Virus record (IMG/VR): IMGVR_UViG_3300009149_000098
Location: 1 to 40,769 of that record
Length of the DNA: 40,769 nucleotides
Origin: a virus
Strand: one strand, 5' to 3'
In this document: piece after piece, positions 3,555 through 40,565 of the stretch
Position numbering within the stretch: position 1 is the first letter of the stretch
Layout of the letters: every line of letters starts with the position of its first letter
Position numbers and translations under genes: made by a program
Notes under the pieces: model-generated
The model's input: only the letters and a program-made list of their open reading frames with translations
What the model was told of the DNA's origin: nothing
Databases searched by the model: none

Positions 3555-3575
3555 AAACTTTAGAGTCTAAAGTTT
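3555..3575. repeat. Intergenic palindrome copy 1
   Basis: Arms AAACTTTAGA and TCTAAAGTTT flank a single central G (3565). It lies 4 nt after the stop codon of the 949-aa gene and 27 nt before the beta-helix gene start. This is the shortest copy: the outer A/T pairs are lost on one side. Member of an eight-copy family in this window. Confidence 0.9.
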
Positions 3576-3579
3576 CCTA

Positions 3580-6429
3580 TTAAGAACTTAGTTGAATTAT
3601 ATTTGAAAGATCAACGTTGATTTTCTTGTCATTATGATCATAGAATTCAACCTTGACACCTGCTGCTCTGACTATATCCATCACGAATGATAACCGAAGG
3701 AAGAGGATGCTTCCATTTAACACAAAAGGAAAAGAAAAGCCATCTATTCTCGGCTGAGTCACTCCAAGGCTCGCAGTCCTAATGATTGAAGACCCAAGGA
3801 CCACGCTTGGATATACATTAGACATCTTGAATGGATAATGTTCGTGCTCAGGAATATATCCGCGATCACGAATAAGCAATCCTCGGGTTGGGGATTCCAA
3901 CTGAAGACTATCATAAAAAAGAATCTCTTCACTTTGATCCATATGATCCAAGATAACCACATCTTCAGTTAAAGGAAGTCCCCCACTGACACCAAGCACA
4001 CCAGGGAGTGCCTCAATAGGAATCTCTAAATTATATGTGGCCACTTGTGTGCCCGAATCATGTAATCGAGTCACCCCAGACACATAAATAGTATTCTCCT
4101 CTTGGGTCCCTGGGAGTCCCCGGCCCCAATAATATAACGGAGCGCGACCAAATCGACCTTCTCCTCCAACAACTACTTGCGTTGGGTATCCTGCTCGAGG
4201 ATTCGATGGAGACCCCCTCCAGGAATTTACTTGCGCCGTTGTTGGGAAAGCAGAGGCATTCGTGACAATCATATTGATAGGCTGGAATTCAAATACATTC
4301 GCACCTCCATCTATGACAATCTGCTTAGGTAAGGTCTTTTTTGCCGTCCCTGGATTAAAATCAACTTCTATCTGGACATTCGATAAATATATTCTCGCAT
4401 CACTTGCATCATTGCGTGCAATGTATGCCTTTGCCTCCACTGTCGATGCCTGAGTTGCCTTCACTTTAGCAGGGGCTTGTCTTGTGCTAGAGAACACGTA
4501 TGGCCCTGGCCATTTGCCTTCAGAAGTCACAGGAGGAGGCCATCCAGCCTCCGGCAAATGAGAACTCTCTGTGGGAATTACTGGAATGGTTCCATACCAT
4601 CTCTCCATAGAGACGCCCACAAGGTGAGTATTTTGGATGGGCCTTGCAACTGTCCATGTAACTTCACCAGATGCTGTGTCTACTAATTCAAGATAGGTTT
4701 CTTCGTTTAATATATCAGTAGAAAAGCCTGGGGCCGCAGATAGTCCCAATTGTGCATTCAAAGCCCGAGAGCCTGCGACTAAATCATAATTAAAAATACT
4801 GGTCGCCGTGATGACACCTAAGTATCCAGTGGAATCAAATACTCGAAAAGTCAAAGGACTCACGAGTGGTCCCTCCGGAACCCTGTCAAATGGATAATCA
4901 ATAGAGACCAATGTGGATAAAGGAGTAATCTGGGAAGTTAATTGACGCCTTTGATAAGTCGTTCCTGTAACAAATATAACCTCTTCACCTGGACCTCCTC
5001 GATCTAAAACCCATAATCCCACAACATTCTCATATCGAGCGACCGACTTCAGTTCCTGGACGGCAGGAGGAATCACAGGGGAGGCTCCTGTCGTCAATCC
5101 GCCTGTCACAACGTCTGCCTGCACCCATTTAATCTTAACGCCTCTCCTGCGCGTCCTGGCTAACGATGCAAGCGTGCTGAATTCCCTTGTTGTTGCATTG
5201 TACCCATTCACGTCAAATAATTCGAGAGGTGCCAGTCGCTCCTCGGGATCCACAATAATATTAAAAGGAGCCGCAGGCACCCCGTCCAATGCTGAATCAT
5301 CAATTTTAAGGATTGTAGATCCCTGGACTGCATCCTCTCGAAGACATGCCATCTTCCATGGCAACGGATGAAGATAAGAAGACCCAGGAATGGATCCTTT
5401 TAATTTATCTTCACATTTAATCTTTACAGCCACTCTTCTGGCCTTCGCTTCAATGAATTCCCAACAGCCGCCATCTATAAAGAATGCGCTCCCTGCTGGA
5501 TGAGAAAATTGAAAATCATTCACCACGCGAACTCTTCTTATGTACTTATCAACAGAAGCAAATGCAAACCCCTCTGAGACACTCATTTTAAATGCAGAAG
5601 TCACTGTAGGCACAACAGACCAATTCAATCCCACTGTAATAGTTCTTGTCGCCCCATCATAATCTGTGATAGTTCGAATGTCACCAATAGCAGCACCACT
5701 TTTAATTTCAATTGACCATCCATTATAAAAATCATCAAGAATACTTGCATTATTTGGCAATTGAAGAGTTGCCACCCCACTATCCTCAGAAGTCTCTAAG
5801 TATTCACTAAAGATGGTTCCCTGTCCATATAGAGGTAACCTATCTGTCACAGGGTATTCTCTGTCTGAATTAACTCTAAGACTAGATCCCGATGATGTCG
5901 CAATACCCCCACTGGTTACCCCAGTAATTGTATTAGTCGCAGCAAAGTCTCCTTTGCGTCTAGAGATAAAATGAAGTTTACTTTCTTCTTTATCGTGATA
6001 GACAACATCTGCCAAGACTCCTAACCCGTTTCCTATAGTCTCTCCACTTTGGAAATCAATAGAGTTCCATCCCGTGATTTTGATAAATTCAATATCCTTA
6101 GAAATATCAAAATATCCACTCCCTTGAATGATTTCTTTTTCCACTCGAAATGTAAGGTTTTCATAGGGACCCAAAACCACTTCAAGAAGTTGCCAGAATG
6201 AATTCCCGATAGCCTTATAATCAGCCATGAGAATTTGTGTGACGGCTCTAAAGAAGTCATCGTCTGAAAAACCGAGTGGGGGCCTTTTTACCCCATAATT
6301 ACCCGCGACAGTATCCAGGTACTTCCCTGCAGACCAATGAAGCAGCAACATTCTTCGAGTTAATTCGAGAGCGGATCGGGGATTCGCTGCGAATAATGGA
6401 GTCGGAATGGAACTTAAATCAATCGCCAT
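3580..6429 (-). CDS. Large baseplate/tail-periphery protein with DDFYNGW module
   Basis: 949 residues; ATG at 6429 with AGG about 8 nt upstream. The first 11 bases overlap the end of the 470-aa gene, implying translational coupling. Residues 1-100 have an architecture seen in baseplate adaptor proteins (LDTVAGNYGVKRPPLGFSDD, resembling the repeat-handling N-termini of gpI/DUF2313-type proteins). Residues about 217-283 hold the DDFYNGW module also found in the sheath and the 902-aa protein. The remainder is beta-rich and fits tail-surface domains. I do not recognise a named family for the whole protein; the role in the baseplate rim or fibre attachment is inferred from position and composition. 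Confidence 0.8.
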   Translation of the reverse strand: MAIDLSSIPTPLFAANPRSALELTRRMLLLHWSAGKYLDTVAGNYGVKRPPLGFSDDDFFRAVTQILMADYKAIGNSFWQLLEVVLGPYENLTFRVEKEIIQGSGYFDISKDIEFIKITGWNSIDFQSGETIGNGLGVLADVVYHDKEESKLHFISRRKGDFAATNTITGVTSGGIATSSGSSLRVNSDREYPVTDRLPLYGQGTIFSEYLETSEDSGVATLQLPNNASILDDFYNGWSIEIKSGAAIGDIRTITDYDGATRTITVGLNWSVVPTVTSAFKMSVSEGFAFASVDKYIRRVRVVNDFQFSHPAGSAFFIDGGCWEFIEAKARRVAVKIKCEDKLKGSIPGSSYLHPLPWKMACLREDAVQGSTILKIDDSALDGVPAAPFNIIVDPEERLAPLELFDVNGYNATTREFSTLASLARTRRRGVKIKWVQADVVTGGLTTGASPVIPPAVQELKSVARYENVVGLWVLDRGGPGEEVIFVTGTTYQRRQLTSQITPLSTLVSIDYPFDRVPEGPLVSPLTFRVFDSTGYLGVITATSIFNYDLVAGSRALNAQLGLSAAPGFSTDILNEETYLELVDTASGEVTWTVARPIQNTHLVGVSMERWYGTIPVIPTESSHLPEAGWPPPVTSEGKWPGPYVFSSTRQAPAKVKATQASTVEAKAYIARNDASDARIYLSNVQIEVDFNPGTAKKTLPKQIVIDGGANVFEFQPINMIVTNASAFPTTAQVNSWRGSPSNPRAGYPTQVVVGGEGRFGRAPLYYWGRGLPGTQEENTIYVSGVTRLHDSGTQVATYNLEIPIEALPGVLGVSGGLPLTEDVVILDHMDQSEEILFYDSLQLESPTRGLLIRDRGYIPEHEHYPFKMSNVYPSVVLGSSIIRTASLGVTQPRIDGFSFPFVLNGSILFLRLSFVMDIVRAAGVKVEFYDHNDKKINVDLSNIIQLSS
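5581..5781 (-). other. DDFYNGW module, copy in the 949-aa protein
   Basis: Residues about 217-283. The core reads ILDDFYNGWSIEIKSG, then ITDYDGATRTITV and a W..VPT..S.F.M ending. The same order of motifs occurs in the sheath (34003-34209) and the 902-aa protein (12818-13009). Confidence 0.75.
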
Positions 6430-7831
6430 TTTGACCTGCCTTCGACAAACTCATGCGGACCACAAAAAACGACTTATGCATTCCAATGTCCTCTCCATAA
6501 AGAAACGAGAGTATGGGAATAGCATCATAGATAATAGGACTCGAAGAACCCAATGCATGATAAGAGAACGCAAACGCAGCCGCCAAGAGATCAATGTGAT
6601 TCTGTTTTACAGAGTGCGCCTTTGAGAGTTTATTAAACCCCGTCATGATCCCAATGCCACTCCAAAAGGCATCATGGGGATCATCCTCGCCATGCTCACT
6701 CCATATACGCCACTCCGCCAATGGCAAACGAATTCCCTTAGGATCTTCTTCGTTATAAGAAGGAGTATTCTTGATTTCATCCTCAAAAGCAGAATACAAC
6801 TTTGAATTATTTGACAATTCATGAACGATCTTCAGCGCATCGTCTTCGATCGCACCCGTTAAACTCAATACTGTTCTCTCTCCAAAAGAAGAAACATCTG
6901 TATATCCCAAAATCTTTAAGACATAACTAAGGACGTTGTTTCCAAATTCTTTAAACTCATGATGCTTGATAAGCCATGACCTCAGCGCTTGACCGTCGTC
7001 TGCAAATTTAGAAACTCCCTTAGCCAATACATTAACCAAAGACTTCCCAAAGTTATACTTAAGCCTCTTCTGGACAGTTTGAATCTCCCCTGAAAGGGCC
7101 TCTTCCAGGTCTCCAATCTCCCTGTCTTCATTCAATATCCATTGCTCAATTCTTTGATAGTCCTCAATTATCTTAGATTTCCCAGACATCCCAACCGAAG
7201 GCAATTCTGACATTAACAGAAAACCAACTGCGATCTTTAAAATACTTTCAGGGAATTTCTCTGCGACCCTCATATTCCTTAATCGACTTGCGTGTCTTTC
7301 GACATCATTGATTTTCTGGAGATCAAATCGCTCTGGATTTTCACTTGGAGTCTCCTGCCATTTCCCATTCCAACCCATGTCATCTTTGAGGCCAAAGTCC
7401 TTGTACCATATCTCAGTATCCCCAATAGAAGCCACAGGCTCGCCTGAAGCACCAGAGTATCCCTCTAGCCCTGGCATTGACATTGGCATTGGCTCGACTC
7501 CACCCCTCTGGCCTTGTTCTTTGTCTTCGCCTTCCTGATTATTCAGATTTAAACGAGCAGCCCCCATTGAATTCACCGAAGAAGAACTTTTACGATCTTC
7601 AACCAATGGCAACTCTTGTTTCCCACTGGCGCTAGAAATATTAGTGGGTCGCCCACGTAAATAAAATGGTTCAACCGCCTCCGCTGCTCTTTCTGGCTTC
7701 GTCCAGTGAATCGTATGAAGAGCATCTGCCCAAAGTCCACCCTTTGGCCCAATGTACGGGGGTGGTCCTCCTAAGTTGTCATTGAGTGCCTTGTTGAAAA
7801 CTTTAGAGTCTAAAGTTTTTTTACCGTTCAT
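6419..7831 (-). CDS. 470-aa protein with N-terminal GPKGG motif and in-frame palindrome
   Basis: 470 residues; ATG at 7831 has AGAGG 8 nt upstream, which supports this start over any later one. Residues 4-12 (KKTLDSKVF) are encoded by palindrome copy 2, so the element is translated. Residues 24-43 read PPYIGPKGGLWADALHTIHW, a GPxGGxWxDxxHT motif that I recall as a short linker in several phage virion-associated multi-domain proteins. The middle region has a Gly/Met-rich stretch (MPMSMPGLEGYSG), then a mostly alpha-helical, charged C-terminal half. No catalytic motif is recognised. It overlaps the next gene by 11 bases. Possibly a virion-delivered or tail-associated protein; function unknown. 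Confidence 0.8.
   Translation of the reverse strand: MNGKKTLDSKVFNKALNDNLGGPPPYIGPKGGLWADALHTIHWTKPERAAEAVEPFYLRGRPTNISSASGKQELPLVEDRKSSSSVNSMGAARLNLNNQEGEDKEQGQRGGVEPMPMSMPGLEGYSGASGEPVASIGDTEIWYKDFGLKDDMGWNGKWQETPSENPERFDLQKINDVERHASRLRNMRVAEKFPESILKIAVGFLLMSELPSVGMSGKSKIIEDYQRIEQWILNEDREIGDLEEALSGEIQTVQKRLKYNFGKSLVNVLAKGVSKFADDGQALRSWLIKHHEFKEFGNNVLSYVLKILGYTDVSSFGERTVLSLTGAIEDDALKIVHELSNNSKLYSAFEDEIKNTPSYNEEDPKGIRLPLAEWRIWSEHGEDDPHDAFWSGIGIMTGFNKLSKAHSVKQNHIDLLAAAFAFSYHALGSSSPIIYDAIPILSFLYGEDIGMHKSFFVVRMSLSKAGQNGD
7797..7819. repeat. Intragenic palindrome copy 2 (translated)
   Basis: Perfect 11-bp arms around central G 7808. It starts 9 nt after the start codon of the 470-aa gene and is read in frame as KTLDSKVF. 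This is the only copy of the eight lying inside a well-supported coding region. Confidence 0.9.
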
Positions 7832-10099: not shown

Positions 10100-10619
10100 A
10101 ATCAACTACAGACCCATACTTAGAGACCAACTGTAAATAAGTCTTATACTCATCACTGTCTGCTACATCAGGTTCCACAATAGACAACGAAACAACGTTA
10201 GGCTCCTCTTGGGATTCTTCCTCTTGGGATTCTTCCTCTTGGGATTCTTCCTCTTGGGATTCTTCCTCTTGAGATTCTTCCTCTTGGGCTGTTAATCCAA
10301 CAGGGGGCGTCGATGCGCCCACAGGATCCCCAGTCATCGCGCCAAAGATATTTCGATAAAGAGTACAAAATACCTTACTCTCATAATCCTGAAAAATTAA
10401 ATCTTGAACAAAGCCAATCCATCGCGACTTATCGGGAAGACCCACCCAAGAGACCTCTCGATTTCCCCAGAAAATAAAAAAAGCGTCATCGCTCTCAATT
10501 CTCTCAATAATTTTCCTCTTGCTCTCTGCTACCTTTTCCTCATAACTCGCCTGCTTCTCAATATTCTTTTGATTCTTCAAGAGATCTTCCTTTGTTTTAT
10601 TTACTCTCTTTTTTGACAT
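10095..10619 (-). CDS. Small protein with EEESQ repeat tail
   Basis: 174 residues from ATG 10619; a TTG immediately upstream is a possible alternative. GGAG lies 10 nt before the ATG. Residues 1-45 are a Lys/Glu-rich helix. Residues about 48-95 (FFIFWGNREVSWVGLP then QDLIFQDYESKVF) resemble the core of the downstream 89-aa protein, so the two are probably ancient duplicates. Residues about 112-140 are five tandem EEESQ units ending in EEP, encoded by a 15-bp tandem repeat. It is the first gene after the strong terminator/promoter at 10656-10740. Function unknown; acidic repeat tails are often flexible linkers. Confidence 0.75.
   Translation of the reverse strand: MSKKRVNKTKEDLLKNQKNIEKQASYEEKVAESKRKIIERIESDDAFFIFWGNREVSWVGLPDKSRWIGFVQDLIFQDYESKVFCTLYRNIFGAMTGDPVGASTPPVGLTAQEEESQEEESQEEESQEEESQEEESQEEPNVVSLSIVEPDVADSDEYKTYLQLVSKYGSVVDS
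10205..10288. repeat. 15-bp tandem repeat encoding EEESQ
   Basis: Five units of CCTCTTGGGATTCTT (plus-strand view) and a partial sixth; the fifth unit carries a single G-to-A change that leaves the amino acid unchanged (Gln). Near-perfect identity at DNA level points to recent slippage expansion. Confidence 0.9.
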
Positions 10620-10655: not shown

Positions 10656-10716
10656 TAATCCATAACACTGTTGTCAACTCCTAAAAAAAAATCCATAACA
10701 ACAGTGTTATGGATTA
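10656..10716. repeat. 19-bp perfect inverted repeat around the terminator
   Basis: Arm TAATCCATAACACTGTTGT at 10656-10674 and its exact reverse complement at 10698-10716, separated by 23 bp. The right arm abuts and overlaps the -10 box of a candidate promoter, and its outer part also forms the terminator stem. It may be an operator, an alternative (antiterminator-type) RNA fold, or both. Confidence 0.8.
10683..10715 (-). terminator. Intrinsic terminator after the 902-aa gene
   Basis: Minus-strand RNA forms an 11-bp stem, AATCCATAACA (10715-10705) with TGTTATGGATT (10700-10690), a 4-nt loop and a following run of T residues (nine As on the plus strand, 10683-10691). It lies about 40 nt after the stop of the 902-aa gene. 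This is the clearest rho-independent terminator in the window. Confidence 0.85.
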
Positions 10717-16357: not shown

Positions 16358-16367
16358 TGCTTCTTCT

Positions 16368-16390
16368 AAAAGTTTAGAGTCTAAAGTTTT
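16368..16390. repeat. Intergenic palindrome copy 3 (mismatch variant)
   Basis: Arms AAAAGTTTAGA and TCTAAAGTTTT around central G 16379, with one G/G mismatch (16372 versus 16386). Its right end overlaps the TAA stop of the 987-aa gene (16390-16392); its left end is 10 nt before the 202-aa gene start. Confidence 0.85.
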
Positions 16391-19353
16391 TAAGGTCTGG
16401 GCATTATTCCTGGAAAAAACCAAGAGTCACCCACTACGATTTGACCACTTCCACTACTCGGGACATTCTCTCTCAACACTGCACCCGCAGAGTTTGCCGC
16501 ATAATTCGATGGTAGCGTTGCTATATCAACAGGTCTATAAAACAAAGAACCCAAAGCATCATCCATTGGCGCAAGAGTCAAAGACGTTAACTCCACGCCA
16601 ACCCCTGCTGCAAGGCCGGGGGCATCATTGAGGATGCTAGAAACTAAAGGAACTACAGGACCTCTCAATCCGACTACCTCCAAAATTGTCACAAACAAGC
16701 TTTGGTCCACATCATAATACATAAACTTCCATATATTTGCTACTCTTTTCACCCTGACATGAAAGAGAGAACCTGACGTAGAGGCAAGTCCCCCTGGAGT
16801 ATATGCATTAGAAGAAGAAATCTTCCCTCCCCCTGTCACATAAGACAACGAAGATTCAATAGTTACCCCACCTGTCCCGCTCCCATTCCCAAGGATAACA
16901 AGCCCAATCCTTCCAAATAATCTCTTTTCTCCAAGAATTCTTAAAGAACATTCATACCTTTGCCCAGATGACATTGAATCGATTGCCTGAAAACCATTCC
17001 CAGCAGCAAATGGTGGTATGAAGCGCCCCTTTAAATCCAATACAAAGTCACTTCGATCAATTACACCACCCCGGATGACATCATTGCGATGCGTTATTGC
17101 AGTCCCCCCTAAAAAATGCCCATAACATAACCACATTCCCTCCGCTATTGATACAAATGAATCCGCGCCCTTCGCGGGTCCTAAGGTTAATCGACTTCTG
17201 TCTAATTCACTTGATAAATCTTGAATGATGTAATTGAACCAATTTGGAAAATGAGGATCCGGAGAATATACATCCATATTATAAGAGACCGCAGGGGGAT
17301 TAAACTGATGACCATACGTCTTAACCACAGATGCATTTGGGTCCCCAGAGTTATACCACAACATCGCCAAATGAGATCCTGCAAACCACCCAGACGAAAA
17401 CGCAACAACCTCAGATCCCACAGGATTACTATCCATCACGAATAAATTAATCCCCTTCGCGCCAAATCGATCCGTCTGCTCCCATGATGTATCCTCAGTG
17501 TATGGAGCCGTAGATAAATTATCTGGAGCCAATACCGTGAAATCCTTGCGACAAAGAACACCTAATAATTCATCAAAAGGCCCGTCTTCTCTTGCCTGAT
17601 TCCAATACAATACCCCGGCATTACTTAGCCCCACCATCACCCATGCTTCATCTGACTGGTCCCATACATCATACCCAGAAACATCTTTTCTGAATAAACG
17701 ACGCTCGTGAGCAGTGCCTCCCTCAGAAAGTTTTAAAGTTGCTCCAAAATACTTACCTTCTCCCGGGTACACCACAGGATATTCCTGAATCCCATAAGCC
17801 ACCACAAGCGTCCCGTCTGCCATTTTTCGAATATTGACACCATACGTGACAGCCGAAGTTAAAACCTCAGAGTTCCCGTTTCTCATCGTCCCTACAAACG
17901 GGAAGGCCGATGGATCTTGGGTTTTATCGTACACATACTCTGGATGCCAAGCGCTTTCATAACTATACCGTCGCGCCCCCCAAGATCCAGACTCTCTGAG
18001 AGACCGACCCGATACTCTATCGTAATACGTCAGATAACGCCCAATCCCCTGCGTATTAAAAATTAAAGATTTATCCCATCGCAAAGAGACAATCCAAACC
18101 TCCCCTTTCCCTTCTTGCTCATCCACGTTTTGATGTAGCGTATCTCGAGTCATCACAATATGCCCTTCATGGGCATCCATCCATCCTGGGGACCACCATG
18201 GAGATTCAGGTTCTATTGCTCTATCTCTGTCCTTCCAACGACTTAAAAGATCCCAACGTCTCCATAATTTAGGGTCACTAGGAGTATCCATATCAACTAA
18301 AGTCAACGCACACTCCTCATCAAGTGAACGCTCCCAATTTATCAAAAGTTCATCAGGGCAATCTTGTCGCGTCCCTGCAAGATGCCCTGGGTTCCCACCA
18401 TCTAATATCTCTAACCACCACGAAGCCCTTTGCTGCCCCTCCCAGATACCTCCACCAATCTCAACGCGCACATCAGAAAGACTATGCCGTTCTCCCACAT
18501 CAGCGTCCGTTGAGAAGGACGCATGAATCCGAGGGACTGCATTGGTCGGCCAACCTCCTGGAAGAACTTCAGCAGCACCTACGGCACTCCAGGATGGCCC
18601 TGTGTAATTCGAGACAACCCCAGTGACATTATAATACCCCCTATAAGTCCCGGCAGAATCCACATTGATTGCTACGTCCACCTCCTGAGTGTCAGGAGGA
18701 AGGGCGACCGATGCTGTAATCGCAGGGACTCCTCCGGTCACATGCCCATGAATAACAGAGAATGGATAAGTCACCGAGTTGCAATAGCCCACAAAAATAT
18801 AATCACTATCAGAGCCCTGTTGTTGAACAGCAAGGAGGATGCATTGTTCGATGCCAGATCCTTGTTCTGCCCCCTCTCCAAAAGTCGTAACCCTCGCTGA
18901 AAGAATTGCCTTGTCCCCAGAAGCAGGATGCGAGAACACCATCGTTCCCTTACGATCATAAACCTCCACCCCAGGTCCGACATATTCACAGAACAAGCGC
19001 TTCCCAAACGGAGCGCTTGCAATCCTATCAATTGCTCCTTCGGAGAAATCATTCCCAATACCAGTCCATCGCTCCGTATCAGTCACTACATCCGTGAAGT
19101 CATCAATGGACTCCTCCGGTTTCCATGCCCTCCCTTGGACGCCATTCTCATAATAATAGCCATCTGCACCAAACCCATAATAGCCCAAGACTCCTGTGGG
19201 ATCCTTGAAATCAGACTGCCCCTCTGGCTCCCTCCCTCGTAAGACTGGCATTAAAGAGGTTCGATGGATCGTCTCTCTCACCATAAGTGGACGAGCCGTT
19301 GTGTCCAAGTCTCCGTTTTTAATTAAGGCAATAAGGGGTTTTATCTGGCTCAT
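16390..19353 (-). CDS. Large 987-aa tail/baseplate-associated protein
   Basis: 987 residues; ATG at 19353, 2 nt after the baseplate J stop, so coupled to it. The N-terminus (LIALIKNGDLDTTARPLMVRE) may attach to the baseplate. The middle (about 330-700) is rich in W, Y and D with repeated strand patterns (WWSPGWMDAHEGHIVM, GGLSNAG-like turns), compatible with a beta-propeller such as a sialidase-type fold, but no Asp-box series is clear. Residues about 770-930 look like a jelly-roll. Located where phages carry their first fibre or receptor-binding protein. Family not recognised. Confidence 0.8.
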   Translation of the reverse strand: MSQIKPLIALIKNGDLDTTARPLMVRETIHRTSLMPVLRGREPEGQSDFKDPTGVLGYYGFGADGYYYENGVQGRAWKPEESIDDFTDVVTDTERWTGIGNDFSEGAIDRIASAPFGKRLFCEYVGPGVEVYDRKGTMVFSHPASGDKAILSARVTTFGEGAEQGSGIEQCILLAVQQQGSDSDYIFVGYCNSVTYPFSVIHGHVTGGVPAITASVALPPDTQEVDVAINVDSAGTYRGYYNVTGVVSNYTGPSWSAVGAAEVLPGGWPTNAVPRIHASFSTDADVGERHSLSDVRVEIGGGIWEGQQRASWWLEILDGGNPGHLAGTRQDCPDELLINWERSLDEECALTLVDMDTPSDPKLWRRWDLLSRWKDRDRAIEPESPWWSPGWMDAHEGHIVMTRDTLHQNVDEQEGKGEVWIVSLRWDKSLIFNTQGIGRYLTYYDRVSGRSLRESGSWGARRYSYESAWHPEYVYDKTQDPSAFPFVGTMRNGNSEVLTSAVTYGVNIRKMADGTLVVAYGIQEYPVVYPGEGKYFGATLKLSEGGTAHERRLFRKDVSGYDVWDQSDEAWVMVGLSNAGVLYWNQAREDGPFDELLGVLCRKDFTVLAPDNLSTAPYTEDTSWEQTDRFGAKGINLFVMDSNPVGSEVVAFSSGWFAGSHLAMLWYNSGDPNASVVKTYGHQFNPPAVSYNMDVYSPDPHFPNWFNYIIQDLSSELDRSRLTLGPAKGADSFVSIAEGMWLCYGHFLGGTAITHRNDVIRGGVIDRSDFVLDLKGRFIPPFAAGNGFQAIDSMSSGQRYECSLRILGEKRLFGRIGLVILGNGSGTGGVTIESSLSYVTGGGKISSSNAYTPGGLASTSGSLFHVRVKRVANIWKFMYYDVDQSLFVTILEVVGLRGPVVPLVSSILNDAPGLAAGVGVELTSLTLAPMDDALGSLFYRPVDIATLPSNYAANSAGAVLRENVPSSGSGQIVVGDSWFFPGIMPRP

Positions 19354-19355: not shown

Positions 19356-21008
19356 TTAGCCCACCAATATATTAAGATTTTCAAGGTCTAAAACTTCATC
19401 TTCAAGAAGTACAATATCCTGAGTGGGACTTCTAAACTGAACATTAAACATCCCATCGACACTCATCGCTCTCTCTATCATCTCCGCGAGAATAATATCT
19501 GCTCCAATTGCCAATTCCTGGAAGTAATTAGTCAACTCATCTATAACCAAAGAGGCCACTTGCCCCTCAGAATATCCCTCGAGCACCTGGATAGACAAAC
19601 GAACGGTGTCAAGAGTTCGGGGGCGTGGGAAAGTCACCAATGCCTTCACGCCAGCCGCAGCAATTCCTGGATATTGGACAGGATCGCTCGCGGCCCCATT
19701 CACAATCTTCTGGACTTCCTGGATTAATCCAGTGTAATACCGATAGACACCCACCTTCAACTCATCCCCAGCATTTAATCCAGGAGATGCTATTTGGACC
19801 CAACTAGTTCCCTCATTCAGGAAATAATCCACTCCTTGTGTCATATTAACAAAAGAAGCAGTTCCCGCCAATTTTCTCTGAAGAATAAATGACTGAGGCA
19901 CAATGGCAATATTCGCAACCTTGAAAAAAATCTGACCATCCTCTGCAGATGAAGTGAGAACCTCATTCGCCACTGAAAGGGTTTCGATAAAATCAAAGTT
20001 CCCAGGCCAAATATATAAAAATAGAAAATCATTAGCCGACACGGGCTGATAGAATTCCCTTAATTTAGCAGAGATCACTCGAAAAGTTCTACCAGTCACT
20101 GTGGTATGTTCTTCACTAATGACCAATTGCTCGAGTGCAAGAGGCACAGACTTCGCCAGGGATTGCTGTTTCCTGTTCCCTCTTGCTAAGAATTGACGAT
20201 CGCTCTCTGTATTTAATCCACCACTGAAAGGAGACTCATTGCGAACAAAAGCACCATTAAATGGAGGTCCACTGACAAACTCTATAATTTGCCCTGCAGC
20301 AAGGTTTCCTGCTGTGCCCGGAGTCTGCGCTTCAGCATTCACAGAAGCACTTTCATAGTTCCCTGCTTCAATGCGAGCAAGTTCCAAAGTTGAGACTGTT
20401 CGCTCAGGAAACTCCGAGGTTGCTCTGGCTCTCACTTGGGATCCCAATGGAATAATAATCACAGATCCGCTCACCAAAGAAACCCGTTCGCCTTTTACGT
20501 GATCCTTCGTCAACGGAGTAGAAAGAGTCAATACCTGACTTGTACTATTATTCGCGGATACTGTCACATCTTCGACATTAGAAGTGCCTTCTCCAATACG
20601 AATAATATACGGAGCATCAGCCGTAGGAGGGAACCCTCGCGAGGACAATAATTGAACAGATGTTCCTGTGGCGCTTAAAGATCCCGCAGCAAATGAAGTC
20701 GTTAGTGAACCATTGCCGAAGATGACCTCTCCTGATGCATTAGTAGAGCCCCTTCTGTAAATATTCCACTCTTTTAACCTCTCCTCAAGATCCCTGCCCC
20801 TTAAATTAGATAAGTTCCAGAACCTGAGAAGTTCCGCCATCTGGTGGTATTGCTCATCATCCTCCAGCGCACATGCTTCTAATATTGTGCGAATCCTGGA
20901 TCCGATATTAAAGTCGGTCAACTCAGGATTCAGAGTTCGAACAAGGTTAACCATGTCCAGTAAAATCTGCTCAAAAAAGCGAGGTTCAAATTCAGGTAGT
21001 CTTGCCAT
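19356..21008 (-). CDS. Baseplate J-like wedge protein
   Basis: 550 residues from ATG 21008 (MARLPEFEPRFF). The N-terminus (NPELTDFNIGSRIRTILEA) and the region with NAEAQTPGTAGNLAAGQIIEF, then NESPFSGGLNTESDRQFLARG are the hallmark of the Baseplate_J / T4 gp6-like family. It forms the baseplate wedge ring in the contractile tail. The start has no convincing ribosome binding site. Palindrome copy 4 ends 11 nt upstream and a small alternative hairpin (21010-21024) touches the start region. A TTG at 21020 is an in-frame alternative. Confidence 0.9.
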   Translation of the reverse strand: MARLPEFEPRFFEQILLDMVNLVRTLNPELTDFNIGSRIRTILEACALEDDEQYHQMAELLRFWNLSNLRGRDLEERLKEWNIYRRGSTNASGEVIFGNGSLTTSFAAGSLSATGTSVQLLSSRGFPPTADAPYIIRIGEGTSNVEDVTVSANNSTSQVLTLSTPLTKDHVKGERVSLVSGSVIIIPLGSQVRARATSEFPERTVSTLELARIEAGNYESASVNAEAQTPGTAGNLAAGQIIEFVSGPPFNGAFVRNESPFSGGLNTESDRQFLARGNRKQQSLAKSVPLALEQLVISEEHTTVTGRTFRVISAKLREFYQPVSANDFLFLYIWPGNFDFIETLSVANEVLTSSAEDGQIFFKVANIAIVPQSFILQRKLAGTASFVNMTQGVDYFLNEGTSWVQIASPGLNAGDELKVGVYRYYTGLIQEVQKIVNGAASDPVQYPGIAAAGVKALVTFPRPRTLDTVRLSIQVLEGYSEGQVASLVIDELTNYFQELAIGADIILAEMIERAMSVDGMFNVQFRSPTQDIVLLEDEVLDLENLNILVG

Positions 21009-21018
21009 CGTTTTTATC

Positions 21019-21043
21019 AAAAACTTTAGAGTCTAAAGTTTTT
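21019..21043. repeat. Intergenic palindrome copy 4 (perfect, 25 bp)
   Basis: Arms AAAAACTTTAGA and TCTAAAGTTTTT with central G 21031. It overlaps the TAA stop of the LysM/gp25-like gene (21042-21044). The left arm can pair alternatively with 21010-21015 to form a second small hairpin beside the baseplate J start. Confidence 0.9.
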
Positions 21044-23215: not shown

Positions 23216-23227
23216 ATTGAAAATCTC

Positions 23228-23250
23228 AAAAGTTTAGAGTCTAAAGTTTT
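23228..23250. repeat. Intergenic palindrome copy 5 (mismatch variant)
   Basis: Same sequence as copy 3, with one G/G mismatch (23232 versus 23246) around central G 23239. Overlaps the TAA stop of the 87-aa gene (23249-23251) and ends 12 nt before the 84-aa gene start. Confidence 0.85.
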
Positions 23251-23512
23251 AAGTGGCATCTTTATCCTCAATATCTGAAAGAGGACATGTCATCGCAGCC
23301 AAATCTCCTTTAATCGTATTATACTTATCCTGTAAAGAAACTAAAGATTTTGTTTGATTACTTAAATCAGTGGACACCTCAGACGATTGACTGGAGGGAG
23401 GTACACTAGAACGAAGTATCCACATTGTAGATACAGCTTGAATAAAAGCAGATGAATTGGGGACCGTCTTTAATTCAGGGACTTCACATGATGGATGTTT
23501 CTTCATAGTCAT
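23249..23512 (-). CDS. Small 87-aa hypothetical protein
   Basis: 87 residues; ATG at 23512 with AGGGG about 8 nt upstream; a second in-frame ATG is at 23506. The gene starts 10 nt after the spike stop. Polar, Ser-rich, with one short hydrophobic patch (FIQAVSTMWILRSS) and a helical segment (TKSLVSLQDKYNTIKGDLAAM). Not recognised. Gene order suggests a spike or baseplate accessory. Confidence 0.65.
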   Translation of the reverse strand: MTMKKHPSCEVPELKTVPNSSAFIQAVSTMWILRSSVPPSSQSSEVSTDLSNQTKSLVSLQDKYNTIKGDLAAMTCPLSDIEDKDAT

Positions 23513-24629: not shown

Positions 24630-24644
24630 TCCTAAAACCTCCTA

Positions 24645-24667
24645 AAAACTTTAGAGTCTAAAGTTTT
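24645..24667. repeat. Intergenic palindrome copy 6
   Basis: Perfect 11-bp arms around central G 24656. Touches the TGA stop of the hub gene (24667-24669); the AGGAGG of the spike gene follows immediately, so a hairpin would sit right beside the ribosome binding site. Confidence 0.9.
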
Positions 24668-27192
24668 CATTTTTTATTCTGCCCAGGTGGTTTATTCAAA
24701 GCCCTCGAAGCAGCCTTCTCAGCGCCAGAATTCCCACCATTCACACCTGGGAGTCTGCGAATAGGATCCCACATCTTCCCAGCCAACTCAGATTGCTGTA
24801 TCCAGGCAATCCGGCCTGCCACTCTCCGATCTTCCTTCGTCTCAACTCCAGAACGAACCCTCCTGGTTCGACCCTTCGTCTCTAACTCTTTCAATATAAC
24901 AAAATCAAGATCATTAATCTTCTTTATCTCTAGCAAATAATCAAGAATGTTCTTCTTTTCTCTTGCTGCTATCGCTTTCAACCCTTCTAATTCAACCCTT
25001 GACAGGTTCGGGGGAGTCACCCCCGGGGCTGCATTAAATTCTGCTCGATTATTGATTGCCTCCCGAATATCATTATCATTTAATAATTCATGAGTGATAT
25101 AAGTTGGTTGCACTTGAGGAGGTTCAGGCACGCGACCTCTTGTTTTTCCAGTGTATGTATCAATAATATTCACTGGATCAGGAGGAGCGTACTTAAATCG
25201 ACCTTGACCTGTATCCATATCTCCAGAAGGCTGGCCTCTCGTCACCGTAAAGGAAGTGTCTAACCTACCAGGATGATTCCATGAATGCGTCACCCCCTCA
25301 ATATAATATGTTTCATTCCTTGGGGAAGATATATCTAAAGCCATCCCCACATGAGCCTTTGGCATTCCCGGGACAGTAAACGTGCCTGCTCTATATGAAG
25401 CATTATGCTGATACCACAAATCTTGAGAAAGTAAACTCCGAGCAAAGAAATCCTGAACAGCCGCTGAATCTATCCTGACTCCTCCAGCGTTCCCATATTT
25501 AGAAGAAATCTCCCTCACCCGCAGACCATATCTCTTTATAGATTCTGGCAAAAATATGGGGACCAGCCCATCTTGCAGGAAAACATACTTTTGATTAGCA
25601 ATGGGCATCTTCGCTGCTGACATCATGAAGAAGTTAAACACATCATTGTCTGCAATTCCAATAGACTCCATTCGGATATCTGAAGTCCTAATCTGGACTC
25701 GATCAATATATCTTACTCCAAATCCCACGTCGTCTAACTTTTCTTTTGCCAATAAACGCTTTTCTAACACAGGGATAACTGATGACCCTTGCCCGGACTC
25801 CACGCCCAAACGCTGGAACATCGCAAACGTCGACTCCGACTTCTGCGCCGATAACTTCCGAATTTCTTCAATCTTATCAAAAGTAAGCCCCGTTACATCA
25901 TTTATAATGATTGAAGCCGCCATTGAATCCAGATCCACCACAGGTTGTGCAGGGATCACTCCCCTTTGCAATTTAGCCACCCGCATAGGATTCAATATAC
26001 TTGAAAAAAAGACATTTCCAAAATGCACCTTTCTGGAACCCAAAACCCCACGAGACACTGACGGCAACTCAAATGTTTCATCTACCCATGAAAAAGGCTT
26101 TTCCCTAATAACAAGAGAAGGAGAATACTTTGGAGACTGCCCCCACTCATCTTTATCTTCTCTACTGCCCAGTTCATCCAATCCTGTGGGAAGCATCGTA
26201 AAGAAACACTCATTCATCATTGGATTCGAATTTTCAATCATCTTTGACCAAACAGAGCCTGTCAAATCATGCGTGGGACTATTAGTAATTCTTCCGTCCA
26301 CAAAGTCATCTTCAACGTGTGTAAATAAGTCCACAATCGAAGTCAATGCATTCGACTGGACTTTATCTTTATGCTTCTTCCATATATCTTGAACTAACCC
26401 ATCTCGCTGCGGAGATCCTCCCCCTGTCCCGCGAACATTTAAAATTCCAATATCTCTCTCTAATTCTTTTGCTCTGTCTAAAAAACTCAGCAACCTCTTC
26501 GATCGGTCTCTCTCTGTTCCCACTCCAGTTGGATAATTATCAGGAAGCACAAACTGTCCACCGAACCCCATAAAGGCCAAAGCAATGGCTCTTGGTATTG
26601 TGGCAGGGGTTCCTATCAGAGGCACGTTCTTGGTCACGAGAGACAATCCTGGGAGTTGTGCTCCGAACAACGTCTCCGGCCCAAGATTCTCATTGTAATA
26701 AATAGAAGTTCTGTCAAATGCCTTCTGAACCCCTGAGCAATGAATCAATACACGTACAGATGTCTTCCCATTCTCCCCTGTATTCATTGAAACTTTGACA
26801 GAATCGATAAATCCAACCAGAATTCTATCATTGTCGGTAGGAGAATCTGATCTACCAAGGACGCCAAACCCCTCCGGAGCATACCCTCCAGTCCCCAAAT
26901 AAACAGAGATCCAATCTCCTGGAAAAATAATCTCCTGGTATGGCTTACCTGGGACCAATGTCAAACTACAACTTTGGCCTCCAAAGGTCTCCTCATACTC
27001 CATGCTAATAATATCATTAGTTAAATCATATTGACCCCAACTTAAACCATTCTCTCCTCCTGGATATCGATCATTTACTTCATGAGTCGCCACAAATGCC
27101 TTGCAAACCGAATGCTGGACATGTGCATCCCTGCTTGCTGCCCTTGCTTTCGCTCCTAATTCATTGTTTGATGCATTTTTCCCAGACGACAT
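24667..27192 (-). CDS. Baseplate hub protein (gp27/gpD-like)
   Basis: 841 residues; ATG at 27192 with AAGGA 9 nt upstream. Residues about 45-180 form an early beta domain (IISMEYEETFGGQSCSLTLVPG, PGDWISVYLG, VGFIDSVKVS), typical of hub proteins that bind the spike trimer. The region near residues 610-655 (VGMALDIS ... YYIEGVTHSWNHPG ... SFTVTRGQ) matches the C-terminal hub domain pattern of gpD-type proteins. The last 130 residues are charged and helical, an extension of unknown role. Gene order (tape measure, hub, spike) supports the call. Confidence 0.8.
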   Translation of the reverse strand: MSSGKNASNNELGAKARAASRDAHVQHSVCKAFVATHEVNDRYPGGENGLSWGQYDLTNDIISMEYEETFGGQSCSLTLVPGKPYQEIIFPGDWISVYLGTGGYAPEGFGVLGRSDSPTDNDRILVGFIDSVKVSMNTGENGKTSVRVLIHCSGVQKAFDRTSIYYNENLGPETLFGAQLPGLSLVTKNVPLIGTPATIPRAIALAFMGFGGQFVLPDNYPTGVGTERDRSKRLLSFLDRAKELERDIGILNVRGTGGGSPQRDGLVQDIWKKHKDKVQSNALTSIVDLFTHVEDDFVDGRITNSPTHDLTGSVWSKMIENSNPMMNECFFTMLPTGLDELGSREDKDEWGQSPKYSPSLVIREKPFSWVDETFELPSVSRGVLGSRKVHFGNVFFSSILNPMRVAKLQRGVIPAQPVVDLDSMAASIIINDVTGLTFDKIEEIRKLSAQKSESTFAMFQRLGVESGQGSSVIPVLEKRLLAKEKLDDVGFGVRYIDRVQIRTSDIRMESIGIADNDVFNFFMMSAAKMPIANQKYVFLQDGLVPIFLPESIKRYGLRVREISSKYGNAGGVRIDSAAVQDFFARSLLSQDLWYQHNASYRAGTFTVPGMPKAHVGMALDISSPRNETYYIEGVTHSWNHPGRLDTSFTVTRGQPSGDMDTGQGRFKYAPPDPVNIIDTYTGKTRGRVPEPPQVQPTYITHELLNDNDIREAINNRAEFNAAPGVTPPNLSRVELEGLKAIAAREKKNILDYLLEIKKINDLDFVILKELETKGRTRRVRSGVETKEDRRVAGRIAWIQQSELAGKMWDPIRRLPGVNGGNSGAEKAASRALNKPPGQNKK

Positions 27193-31366: not shown

Positions 31367-31385
31367 CATAGCCTCCTAAAGATAC

Positions 31386-31530: not shown

Positions 31531-31557
31531 TAAAAACTTTAGAGTCTAAAGTTTTTA
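31531..31557. repeat. Intergenic palindrome copy 7 (longest, 27 bp)
   Basis: Perfect 13-bp arms (T + AAAAACTTTAGA and its complement) around central G 31544. It lies 4 nt after the TAA stop of the 153-aa gene and, unlike the other copies, about 165 nt before the next start. Confidence 0.9.
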
Positions 31558-31561
31558 CAAC

Positions 31562-32118: not shown

Positions 32119-35100
32119 TTATGCAGACAGAGTTGGCAACTGGAATGCAAAATCAATTAAGACAAAGTTTAATCCAGTCTTAGGAAATACCCTGAATTTA
32201 ATTCTAGCAACATCGCCGGAAATACGAACTCCTAATTCACTCCAGGCATGAATCCAACGCCCGTTCTCATCCTGGGAATCAATGATAATCCCCTCGGCTC
32301 GCTGCTCTTCAAGAAGAGTCGCAACGTGCGTTCTAATAGAACCAATGTTCGCCGGAGCAACAAAGCGCACCCCGGGTCGCACAGCGCCAATCCCTCGTCC
32401 CACGAATCTATCTTCGACAGAAGATCGAATAAGTCTCTGAAGGAAGTTACGGACCTCCCAAACATTGGTGTCCGTTCTGGCAAGGTTATCAGAAGATACG
32501 TGAGTGGTGAATCCTCTCACTACTCTCCAAAATCCATTATTTGGCTCCCCAAAGAACAAGCCCCCACGAAGGGCTTTATCACTGTCCTTTTTAGACAACG
32601 GATCCCAATCATTAAAGGGTTGAACAAGTCTTGCTGTCTTTAACTGCTTGAAGGTCGAAGGCTCTCCAATATCAGTGCCCATCTGAATCCCTGCGGCTTG
32701 ACAAGCAAAACCCCAAGGATCAATAATCTCTTCAATACCCGCAGAAGTGAACACCTGCGTCTTCTGTCCAACCAGAGATAATCTCTCTTCATTCAACAGT
32801 CGGATTGTCTCTAGGAGACCTCTGTTGTATGTCACACCGCCAAAAGTACCTGCCTCAAGAGGCAAGTTTAAGCCTAAGTAGCCTTGAGTCTCTGCCCTTA
32901 CATCCTCAGCATCCAGTAAGTAATCTCTGAATAAATCAACGAAGACATCAATATCTCCTGCCTCAAAAGAGGGGAGATCTTCAGAAACCAGAGGCACCGT
33001 CACTCTCACTTCTTTAAACTTAAGTAATTCATTCAATCCAGACTCCCAGGAGACCGGATATCCAGGCTCCGTTGTATTGTCTGGGATGGTCACTCGTGAG
33101 GTTCCGACTGTCCCCCCTTGCAATTTCTTGAAGACATCCAAGTTATCCTCAGGCTGCGCAGCACCAATCATTTGGTTCCATGCAGGAGAATCAGCAGAGA
33201 ACCCAGGGGCTTGCTGAGAAGACCCAGCACCCGTGGCTCTCGTCGCAGAGAAAACTCCAACTTGAGACGCCACAAATTCCACTAATTTCTGCAAGTTGTC
33301 CTTGACGATAAATGAATCATCAGATGGTCCACCAAGTAATTGAGATCCTCTCACGAATTCAACTGTAGAATTGAATGGATGATCAAATTGAGTAGAAGAT
33401 GCCGTAGACGAAAGAACATCAGTTCCTGTGGTATTTGTCGTGACAAGGAACAATTCCTCTCTAGGAGTTCCCGGCTCAATCCGAACATAATAATTTCCAT
33501 AGGAAGAGGGATCCGGGAACTCATCGGACTTCTGCAATCCCAAAGTTGTGGACCCAGAACCTGTCGTTCCCATGATAGAAGAGATATATCTCCCATAATG
33601 GTCCGACATTTGACCAAAGTCAAAACGAGACGACAGCAAACTTCGATTAACACCGTCGCCCACATCAGAGAAGACGCCAGAGATTCCGTCTAACTTCTTC
33701 TCCAACTCATCCAATGTTTTATATTCAGAGAGGACAATGTCAGCCAGTACGTTAGTCGCAGGACTTCCAGTGCGATCTCTCGTGATAATTTTAAGAGAAG
33801 TTGCCTTCCCATCAGAGCCATCCATTTCCAGATATGCATCGGTAGCCTGAAAGACCTTCCATTCTAACAGAGGAGTCGTGGGTGCAACACCCAAGCCCAC
33901 CCCTGCCAAAGTAATATCGTCTATACTGAGACCACCACCAGCAGCCGTATGGCTTAAGATTTTGTACATCTTTCCAAGGAATGGGTTTGCTACAGGGGAA
34001 TGCAATTTTAGATCGTTGTTCGTGGCTGTCCCTGAAGGCGCAACTGTAATCGTACCACCAGTCAACGTTGCAACCCGAGTATTCCCAACGTAATCAAGAA
34101 TTCTCAACCACTGAACCGTCGTGCCATTATCATTGGTGATACTCACAACCCAGTTATTATAAAAATCATCTTGAATACTTGCCGAGGATGGAAGAGTTAT
34201 CGTAGTGCCAGCAGCGGCCCAAGATACTCCTCCACCATGTCCACCTGTCGTTCCATCCACATCTAAGAAGGAAGCAGCAGGGTTTGCTGACCCCAACATC
34301 GTTGGACCCGTAATGATTGCCCATCTGTCAATATGAGCACTTGCAGTCAAATTATTTTCAGAGGTATCTAATACAGTCGCACTGGAGATCGTAGTTGTCC
34401 CCTGTACCGCATTGCCACCATCTTGAGCAATCGGGATTGCCCAATTGGCAGGATTGGTCCACTCTGCAAGACTGCCACCCCCAGTGGGATCCAGTTTAAT
34501 AAGAAACGTTGGTTTCCTTAACCCACCAAAAGGCTCTTTGTCTTTAATGAGTCTCCTTAGTTGCTTCACCTGCATTTCATAAGAAAGCAACTGAGGTTGT
34601 CTACCAAACTCAACAGAATAATCATTCCCCGGAGGACCCCACTCGAGAGCAGTGTACTTTACCTGGGGAGCAGCAATCCGGAATGTGCTGGTCAGAGTCG
34701 AACTAATAGGAATAGGATCCCAATCTAAATCGTCCCTTAGTTCCAAAATATACTCAAGGGCGCTATTAGGGTTGACCCGGGAAGAAGCAATAAACTTTTG
34801 CTGCCCTTTTCCGGGACCACTCATAATCTCAACAACTAAGTTTGCAAACTCATTCTCTGCGTAACCATTAGGAGCAGCAGGATTATTGATCAGCAATTGG
34901 GCTGGTTTAAGATCGACAGTAGAGGTAGCATCAACTCGCAACGCTGTTTGCTCTGTGGTTCCCAATATAACCGCGTTCAATACTGGGGAGCCTGAGGCTG
35001 GAGGAAACACTCCTGTCTCTGGATCCCGGACCAGCCATCGTTCAGCGGAAGTCGATCGGTTTGCTTTGTATGCATAGACAACAACGGCACCACCAGTCAC

Positions 35101-35352
35101 TCTGGGGTCATTGGAGGGCTGCATCAATAATTGAATACCATCAGCAAGATCTGATGGGCCGAAATAATTTCGCGCTGTATTGTAGTCTGAGAAGACATGA
35201 ACCACACCGGGTTGCCCATAAGGAGCCTCCCCAACAATCGCAGCCACTTTCGAGTTATCGACACCGGGCTGAATCATTCCAGAGAGATCTGTGTATGCTT
35301 CTGCCCCCGGATGCACTATTACTTTACCGTGAAAAACAACCTCTCTGGCCAT
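32119..35352 (-). CDS. Tail sheath protein, unusually large
   Basis: 1077 residues; ATG at 35352 with AGGAG 6 nt upstream. The N-terminus (VIVHPGAEAYTDLSG, VDNSKVAAIVGEAPYGQPG, DPRVTGGAVVVYAYKANR) and C-terminus (FVGRGIGAVRPGVRF, ISGDVARIKFRVFPKTGLNFVLIDFAFQ) are characteristic of contractile sheath subunits. Typical sheaths are about 400-700 residues, so there are insertions between residues about 110 and 780. One (about 382-450) is a DDFYNGW module; another (about 170-228, GKGQQKFIASSR ... LDWDPIPI) looks like a diverged copy. The insertions probably sit on the outer surface. Sheath contraction drives the tube through the host envelope. Confidence 0.9.
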   Translation of the reverse strand: MAREVVFHGKVIVHPGAEAYTDLSGMIQPGVDNSKVAAIVGEAPYGQPGVVHVFSDYNTARNYFGPSDLADGIQLLMQPSNDPRVTGGAVVVYAYKANRSTSAERWLVRDPETGVFPPASGSPVLNAVILGTTEQTALRVDATSTVDLKPAQLLINNPAAPNGYAENEFANLVVEIMSGPGKGQQKFIASSRVNPNSALEYILELRDDLDWDPIPISSTLTSTFRIAAPQVKYTALEWGPPGNDYSVEFGRQPQLLSYEMQVKQLRRLIKDKEPFGGLRKPTFLIKLDPTGGGSLAEWTNPANWAIPIAQDGGNAVQGTTTISSATVLDTSENNLTASAHIDRWAIITGPTMLGSANPAASFLDVDGTTGGHGGGVSWAAAGTTITLPSSASIQDDFYNNWVVSITNDNGTTVQWLRILDYVGNTRVATLTGGTITVAPSGTATNNDLKLHSPVANPFLGKMYKILSHTAAGGGLSIDDITLAGVGLGVAPTTPLLEWKVFQATDAYLEMDGSDGKATSLKIITRDRTGSPATNVLADIVLSEYKTLDELEKKLDGISGVFSDVGDGVNRSLLSSRFDFGQMSDHYGRYISSIMGTTGSGSTTLGLQKSDEFPDPSSYGNYYVRIEPGTPREELFLVTTNTTGTDVLSSTASSTQFDHPFNSTVEFVRGSQLLGGPSDDSFIVKDNLQKLVEFVASQVGVFSATRATGAGSSQQAPGFSADSPAWNQMIGAAQPEDNLDVFKKLQGGTVGTSRVTIPDNTTEPGYPVSWESGLNELLKFKEVRVTVPLVSEDLPSFEAGDIDVFVDLFRDYLLDAEDVRAETQGYLGLNLPLEAGTFGGVTYNRGLLETIRLLNEERLSLVGQKTQVFTSAGIEEIIDPWGFACQAAGIQMGTDIGEPSTFKQLKTARLVQPFNDWDPLSKKDSDKALRGGLFFGEPNNGFWRVVRGFTTHVSSDNLARTDTNVWEVRNFLQRLIRSSVEDRFVGRGIGAVRPGVRFVAPANIGSIRTHVATLLEEQRAEGIIIDSQDENGRWIHAWSELGVRISGDVARIKFRVFPKTGLNFVLIDFAFQLPTLSA
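34003..34209 (-). other. DDFYNNW module in the sheath
   Basis: Residues about 382-450: ITLPSSASIQDDFYNNWVVS, ILDYVGNTRVATLTGG and a short hydrophilic end. The start (T.ITLP..AS..DDFYN.W) aligns closely with copies in the 949-aa and 902-aa proteins. Confidence 0.75.
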
Positions 35353-39145: not shown

Positions 39146-39619
39146 CTACAGCACTTCCATAGAACAAAGCAGTTCTTTTGTTCCTGCATTGTCCAATTTG
39201 GATGGTTTTCGTATCGACTTTATTTTCCTCTTAAAACTCTTCATAGAATAATGGGAAATTGGCCCCATGTATCTATCTGGATGATCATAATGCAAACGAA
39301 ATGAACCAATCACATCTTCTTCGCTGTCGAACCCAAGGAATACTTTATCTTCATCATATTCATCATTAAACGACTTTTTCTGATGAATAATCCAAACATC
39401 CTTGGAATCTCTATTTGGACCCACAAACACATCAAGATCGTCTCCATCTACAGCGACAACTCCCTTGATATAGCCATAATCATGCCTCATCACAGTCTTC
39501 CATGGAATGCCTCCATATCCAATGCCCTGCCTGATGTTCCCCGCTGCTGTCTCCACTTCAATAGGAAGACCCTGGAATGAGAACTTGCCATCCAATCTAA
39601 AAGACTTTAAAAACCACAT
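39146..39619 (-). CDS. Inorganic pyrophosphatase-like phage protein
   Basis: 157 residues; ATG at 39619 overlapping the previous stop (TAATG). HDYGYIKG then DGDDLDVFVGP (58-68) matches the family I pyrophosphatase signature D-x-D-[PE]-x-D-x except that the Pro/Glu is Asp. A second block DEDKVFLGF (89-97) is typical of the InPase-like domain reported in phage polyvalent proteins, where it is usually fused to proteases or other enzymes. Here it stands alone in a connector operon. Hydrolysis of pyrophosphate is possible but unproven, since several family I active-site residues cannot be placed. Confidence 0.75.
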   Translation of the reverse strand: MWFLKSFRLDGKFSFQGLPIEVETAAGNIRQGIGYGGIPWKTVMRHDYGYIKGVVAVDGDDLDVFVGPNRDSKDVWIIHQKKSFNDEYDEDKVFLGFDSEEDVIGSFRLHYDHPDRYMGPISHYSMKSFKRKIKSIRKPSKLDNAGTKELLCSMEVL

Positions 39620-40524
39620 TAAGGAATCTCTGTAAAAATATTAGCAGAAGCCACCATTGGAGTCTGGAACACGCGACGATACCGAATCCTGGAAATCTCA
39701 ATCTCTACTCTAACACCCTGTGGAAGTTTCAAGTCAAAACGTCCATTGCCATCCGTTGCTGCTCGAACCAGTTCATCCGTCCATCCTACTCCCATACCAA
39801 TATTTGGCATATCGAGAACTCGTCCAACTACACTGATCCCAGAATACGGAGAACCTGTCCCTGGATTATGAATAAATCCATAAAGGTTGACCATACCAGA
39901 CCCGGGGATGTCGCTAGGATCCAACTCCACAGACACCGAAGCAATAGCTTGGCCTCCTGGAGTTTCCACTACCACAGCATGGTCAATCCCTATCACAACG
40001 TCCGGCTTTGTTACCGTCACTTGGAGTTGAGAATTAGACGCTGCTGTAATAGGAACAACTATTCCATTAATTGTGACAGAAGTCGCTCCGAGTAAATCGG
40101 TGCCATTAATGGTCAATGTATTCCCTTGAAACACTGGATCTGGACTCACTCCAGGGGGCACATCTGTTTGTTCGTTGATTGTCGGAGGGTCCGATGGGAA
40201 CACTGGAAGAGATGCCACAACTGAAAGTATATCTTCATACTGAATGAAGGGCGTGGCCCCCACCGCTATAATCTGATATCTAAAAGCACCCAATGTGTCA
40301 AAATCTATTGAAGAAAATTGAATAGAATAATTACCACCGCCCCGATCCACCCAGTCAGCAGGGATTAATGTCTTTACGGTATAACCAGAAGCTCCGGCCT
40401 TCCGGATTCGCACCTCAATATCTGTCTCAGCCAATCCAAGAACAGGCGTTCCTGCCGCAGTGGGTAACGGAGCAAATAATTGGACCATATCTTCTGATGC
40501 TATGCCCTGAAGTACGTAGTTCAT
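39619..40524 (-). CDS. TIG/Ig-like and carboxypeptidase-regulatory-like virion protein
   Basis: 301 residues; ATG at 40524 with AAAGGA 7-9 nt upstream. Residues 1-105 are a beta domain (DTLGAFRYQIIAVG). Residues about 112-205 fit an IPT/TIG fold (PVFQGNTLTINGTDLLGATS, VTINGIVVPI, HAVVVETPGG). Residues about 210-295 resemble a carboxypeptidase regulatory-like domain (NLYGFIHNPGTG, ATDGNGRFDLKLPQGVRVEI). Such domains decorate capsids, connectors or tails. Exact location on the virion is unknown. Confidence 0.75.
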   Translation of the reverse strand: MNYVLQGIASEDMVQLFAPLPTAAGTPVLGLAETDIEVRIRKAGASGYTVKTLIPADWVDRGGGNYSIQFSSIDFDTLGAFRYQIIAVGATPFIQYEDILSVVASLPVFPSDPPTINEQTDVPPGVSPDPVFQGNTLTINGTDLLGATSVTINGIVVPITAASNSQLQVTVTKPDVVIGIDHAVVVETPGGQAIASVSVELDPSDIPGSGMVNLYGFIHNPGTGSPYSGISVVGRVLDMPNIGMGVGWTDELVRAATDGNGRFDLKLPQGVRVEIEISRIRYRRVFQTPMVASANIFTEIP

Positions 40525-40540
40525 CCTGCATCCTTTATAA

Positions 40541-40565
40541 AAAAACTTTAGAGTCTAAAGTTTTT
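40541..40565. repeat. Intergenic palindrome copy 8 (perfect, 25 bp)
   Basis: Arms AAAAACTTTAGA and TCTAAAGTTTTT with central G 40553. It overlaps the TAA stop of the EEPK-repeat gene (40564-40566) and ends 16 nt before the TIG-protein start; two further T residues follow on the minus strand, giving a seven-T run. Confidence 0.9.

Follow-up and report, generated by a model that had tools for sequence, protein, structure and literature searches.

What role do eight short palindromes play at the gene boundaries of a phage tail region? The window, the whole stretch of 40,769 nucleotides analysed here (IMG/VR record IMGVR_UViG_3300009149_000098), is a linear virus fragment and the tail-gene part of a myovirus. 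Nearly all its genes lie on the minus strand, and their products are tail and structural proteins; besides those in the table they include a phrog_1015 lysin-type tail protein and virion proteins of phrog_985 and phrog_1004. Two tandem repeats also occur in the window: one of 12 bp in coding sequence at the right end (40631-40769) and one of 15 bp inside a short ORF (10204-10288).

All eight palindromes lie where the initial annotation had placed them (see the table), and its view that chance repetition is negligible is borne out: the best palindromic word with 6-nt arms occurs eight times, compared with at most two in any of 40 Markov shuffles. Allowing up to 2 mismatches, the arm pattern matched the window 19 times (shuffles mean 6.3, maximum 14). 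The proposal of common arms held for the coding-strand AAACTTTAGACTCTAAA, invariant in 8/8 copies, and failed for the outer As and Ts, which vary; symmetry at position 7 is broken in the copies centred at 16379 and 23239. The annotation had all but one copy between genes. Copy 7797-7819 overlaps the opening codons of ORF 6419-7831, and copy 16368-16390 is intergenic if the ATG of the next gene is near 16358. That all eight belong to a single transcription unit could not be established, as a conventional intrinsic terminator lies on the coding strand.

Coordinates of the palindromes, the window genes and terminator discussed in the text, and the candidate binding protein
Feature	Contig	Coordinates	Strand	Details
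Palindrome copy 1	window	3553..3577		centre 3565; past the stop of ORF 3580-6429; 38 nt before the start (3527, - strand) of a gene truncated by the window's left end
Palindrome copy 2	window	7796..7820		centre 7808; inside first codons of ORF 6419-7831
Palindrome copy 3	window	16367..16391		centre 16379; variant half-site AAAGTTTAGA on + strand; flanked by ORF 16390-19353 and a 224-aa gene
Palindrome copy 4	window	21019..21043		centre 21031; precedes baseplate J gene 19356-21020
Palindrome copy 5	window	23227..23251		centre 23239; variant half-site; precedes ORF 22961-23215
Palindrome copy 6	window	24644..24668		centre 24656; precedes ORF 23523-24629, directly 5' of its AGGAGG
Palindrome copy 7	window	31532..31556		centre 31544; ORFs 31562-32023 and 30947-31369 on either side
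Palindrome copy 8	window	40541..40565		centre 40553; precedes ORF 39619-40524
Baseplate J-like protein	window	19356..21020	-	PF04865 2e-12, phrog_6
Tail sheath protein, 1077 aa	window	32119..35352	-	phrog_279 1.5e-26
Conventional intrinsic terminator	window	10690..10715	-	of another kind than the palindromes
ParB-family protein, 452 aa	G008	92526..93884	+	HTH_ParB, ParB_N

Relatives were found in three ways. Protein searches, with the baseplate J-like protein as query, gave contigs G001, G002, G003, G004, G006 and G007; a scan for the palindrome word gave G008 (161,002 bases); and G009 was found on rechecking earlier loci. G004 is about 50% identical to the window in protein sequence (sheath, baseplate J), and G007, about 99% identical to G004, was left out of the counts. 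The core TTTAGAnTCTAAA recurs 16 times in the 65.9 kb of G004, 52 times in the 161 kb of G008 and 7 times in the 23 kb of G009, and the 15-mer with up to 2 mismatches has 55 copies in G008. The similarity of G008 to the window is confined to the window's right end, so G008 represents chiefly the head, replication and early regions of a related phage, whose genome would exceed 200 kb. G009 is syntenic with G008, and its 7 sites share the window's flavour, AAAsTTTAGA.

An exact 17-mer scan of IMG/VR returned 51 single-copy contigs, mostly attributable to chance, with G008 and G009 among them. The word is absent from the genomes of the 84,980 bacterial and archaeal species searched. Megablast against phages gave no match, and baseplate J had no relatives in bacterial or archaeal genome contigs. 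G008 also encodes translation initiation factor IF-3 and RNA-repair-type genes, and carries GC-rich short repeats (GCTAGCCCCCGCTA and others) at 157-161 kb, close to the contig end, a possible terminal region; G004 encodes a Band 7/SPFH protein and a MazG-domain protein.

More distant relatives carry palindromes of a different word. In G002 this is GTTyAGTnACTrAAC, at 11 sites (12 including one weaker), in G001 GTTAGGwCCTAAC at 4 sites and in G006 GTTGA-N5-TCAAC at 5. Copy numbers exceed those of shuffles in the window, G004, G001, G002 and G006. G003 has no repeated palindromic word, which shows that not every member of the wider group has the feature. G005, in which GATCC and CCGGA words exceed shuffles, was set aside as a member of the group because its link to it is weak (34% over 98 residues). 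Mx1 was rejected as a carrier: it has no such family in 1-99,800 and 105,000-154,000, and its GTCGG-N7-CCGAC copies resemble tRNA T-arms.

Taken over all words, most sites lie shortly before gene starts. Across seven contigs, 22 of the 103 sites fall in called ORFs, where 94 would be expected. The zone 8-100 nt upstream of a start codon holds 68 of them (9.5 expected), the ORFs having been called mechanically and some starts being approximate. Start zones are enriched even among non-coding sites (11/14 in G004 against 6.8 expected; 30/43 in G008 against 20.7 expected), and in G008 sites precede genes of both strands. Permutations give 12.3 palindrome-bearing boundaries in common between genomes with different words, and 20 are observed (P=0.0045). 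For this test the boundary of the 368-aa gene in G001 and the start of the window's 224-aa gene had been placed by hand. Five tail-region contigs, the window, G004, G001, G002 and G006, carry a palindrome at the boundary preceding the baseplate J gene.

The sites look like double-stranded targets. Of 83 TTTAGA-type sites, 77 have G or C as the centre base, which takes either orientation in three of the four contigs; the window is the exception, with C on the coding strand in 8/8 copies, a uniformity with a chance of 1 in 128. The half-sites mix independently (A/A, T/T or C/C at positions 7 and 8), although position 8 is complementary beyond the expectation for independent halves, a surplus explained by the preference of each genome for one half-site. 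Folded as RNA, perfect copies reach -7.2 kcal/mol, and variant copies to only -1.1, -1.1 and -0.2 kcal/mol. The strand-free centre, the mixing of half-sites and the near-zero folding of the variants together favour recognition of double-stranded DNA by a dimer. In three of the four word types the half-site centres are separated by about 10 bp, a spacing that would fit one helical turn.

Of the roles first proposed, the binding site for a phage regulator is thus the one we favour, on the strength of the association with starts, the lineage-specific words in relatives and the absence of the word from the species genomes searched. Each palindrome would be a two-fold symmetric operator for a phage-encoded protein that binds as a dimer and acts as a genome-wide regulator at gene starts; judging from sequence comparison, we put the probability of this at about 0.6. 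Against it count the single orientation of all eight centres in the window and the 22 of 103 sites inside called ORFs. The symmetry, the association with starts, the lineage words and the keeping of positions despite changed words are plain in the sequences compared. From these we infer that the sites may have drifted in step with the phage DNA-binding protein that recognises them, so that those of any one genome stay alike.

The best candidate for this protein is encoded in G008. Its ParB-family protein matches TIGR00180 (1.1e-12) and Noc (2.6e-12), in both cases under the models' curated cut-offs, and its matches among PDB sequences are Noc and Spo0J. Structure prediction is confident for its core (residues about 120-300), whose fold matches ParB, Noc and KorB structures; by profile the protein is nearer ParB/Noc than KorB, the KorB domain PF08535 scoring under its cut-off (E 0.068). 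It has GFSR in place of a clean GERR motif. The leader of its gene contains a palindrome site, at 92313, across which lies a divergent gene for an HTH_23 protein resembling a terminase small subunit. Its putative target would be the palindrome AAATCTTTAGASTCTAAAGATTT. Among the palindrome contigs a ParB was found in G008 only, the others being fragments, and a ParB scan gave only distant ParBs among the matches listed. Of the 69 Pfam and 91 PHROG families in G008, the survey covered the first 25 listed and a checked subset, and regulators beyond these could be missed. Elsewhere in G008, at 83739-85157 on the minus strand, a DNA methyltransferase is fused to a ParB_N domain. G004 has an HTH_17/MerR-like protein with a palindrome nearby (oriented 52277-52762, original 13143-13628), which was rejected as the binder, having no homolog in G008.

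It is possible, as a tentative reading by analogy, that the regulator belongs to the ParB/Noc/KorB family, like the G008 protein, loading at the palindromes and controlling transcription of the adjacent genes; by analogy with KorB, repression would be the mode to assume first, with activation as the alternative. Somewhat more doubtful is the wider proposal that these large phages, probably of over 200 kb, have made a ParB/KorB-type clamp their master regulator. It would load at over 50 sites in each genome, one ahead of many of the genes, and its specificity and its sites would switch together between lineages.

Other readings of the palindromes fit the evidence less well. Recombination linkers enabling module exchange, one of the roles first proposed, would suit the intergenic position, but only about 21 bp are held in common and related phages differ in word at the same boundaries while positions and symmetry are kept, which makes linkers scarcely credible. 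Intrinsic terminators that work in both directions by means of A- and T-tracts are very improbable: the window copies do resemble an A-tract, stem and T-tract, and several come directly after stop codons, but the G001 and G006 words have no T-run, homologous boundaries included, the G004 sites track starts and not stops, and true terminators are present separately. The processing or 3'-end-protecting hairpin of the initial annotation, taken more broadly as RNA hairpins in leaders or between genes that act on processing, stability or translation, seems quite improbable. The stability of the perfect copies and the many sites adjoining ribosome binding sites would suit it, but the sites track starts and the variants barely fold. 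Nor are mismatches of a kind that RNA pairing would tolerate clearly preferred: G.U and A.C number 8 and 4 at position 10, and 14 and 7 at position 11, counts that may lean towards G.U and are not clearly different, and the G002 hemivariants on the coding strand are C.A in four sites and U.G in two. The innermost pair, which in RNA would lie in the loop, is still complementary in the window/G004/G008, G002 and G001 words, and Rfam gave no family match at gathering score in the window.

That the palindrome is instead the promoter core of a phage RNA polymerase or sigma-like factor, drifting as T7-type promoters do with their polymerase, we consider unlikely. Such a core would explain a word that is invariant within a genome, differs between lineages and often lies 12-60 nt before starts. 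In G004, conventional terminators directly 5' of two sites, by 20 and 37 nt, mean that those sites head new units. However, a symmetric site with a strand-free centre encodes no direction, and sigma70 region 2 was looked for and not found. We detected no motif at a fixed distance from the palindromes and no strong word at a variable distance. The probable early promoter of the G008 phage is a separate element, GTAAATGCTyTGCTTT, with 20 copies (133809-160933 and 92445), mostly 50-80 nt before start codons; in 5 of the 20 a palindrome lies 17-30 bp 5' of it. This arrangement, like the terminators ahead of the two G004 sites, also suits the operator reading. Also unlikely, though the least so of the alternatives, is that the palindromes serve a ParB/Noc-type protein in genome segregation, compaction or nucleoid exclusion and have no role in expression, their proximity to starts reflecting avoidance of coding sequence. 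The ParB of G008 speaks for this, and Noc typically has many dispersed binding sites. So do two ParB-encoding viral contigs, G011 (L200) and G012 (L190), in which GATTT-N3-AAATC occurs 35 and 10 times (expected near 0), many copies lying within genes in the stretch examined. Their ParBs also depart from GERR (GFRR), and they may represent a second system of a ParB with dispersed sites; as these contigs were noticed among 76 tested loci, the link between ParB and palindrome is suggestive only. Against segregation stand the enrichment of start zones among non-coding sites in G004 and G008, the boundaries common to different lineages and the failure to find ParA (no AAA_31) in G008, G004, G002 and G009, all of them fragments.

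The regulator-site reading can be set beside systems already known. Dispersed operators are known from a few phages, namely stoperators, SAS/ESAS and the conserved inverted repeats (CIR) of phiC31, which are bound by the c repressor. The phiC31 repeats are alike in being short palindromes dispersed between one phage's genes, and differ in belonging to an unrelated host group. Noc, a ParB-family protein, likewise has many dispersed palindromic sites, of another word, and the phage sites differ from them in their association with starts. The KorB operator has an S centre and occurs in several dispersed copies, and the phage palindrome shares with it both the symmetric site and the dispersal. Its core, TTTAGCsGCTAAA, matches the phage TTTAGAsTCTAAA at 11 of 13 positions, with positions +-1 differing in every phage copy. 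We estimate that so close a match to any single operator would arise by chance with a probability of about one percent or less, and since the operator was chosen for comparison after the word was known we treat it as a lead. KorB is a ParB-family global repressor of plasmid RK2, whose operator is ATTTTAGCGGCTAAAAG, and acts both near and far from promoters (PMC11790492). The phages differ from RK2 in having many more sites, no ParA that was found and a candidate protein nearer ParB/Noc.

The stoperators of Cluster A mycobacteriophages are likewise short, conserved and scattered in large number along the phage genome, but they are asymmetric 13-bp sites bound by a monomeric repressor (PMC9283540), whereas the palindromes are symmetric with a strand-free centre. 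The SAS/ESAS of Cluster K are associated with start codons, recur at the same gene families and diverge between subclusters (PMC3203893), and in all three respects resemble the palindromes, which lack a 13-bp SAS-like partner and are a single compact palindrome in place of 17-bp repeats with a variable spacer. As read from sequence, the palindromes form a genuine family of probable operators, specific to each lineage and associated with gene starts, in a group of uncultured phages. Their density (52 in 161 kb), their tie to starts whichever strand the gene is on and the replacement of the whole word where positions are conserved offer a natural series in which a regulator and dozens of sites would change specificity together. 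If the protein belongs to the ParB family, KorB-like long-range control would extend to phages, in a form that can be tested. In behaviour the palindromes are closest to KorB operators, stoperators and SAS/ESAS but fail one defining feature of each, and thus appear to be a variant of their own.
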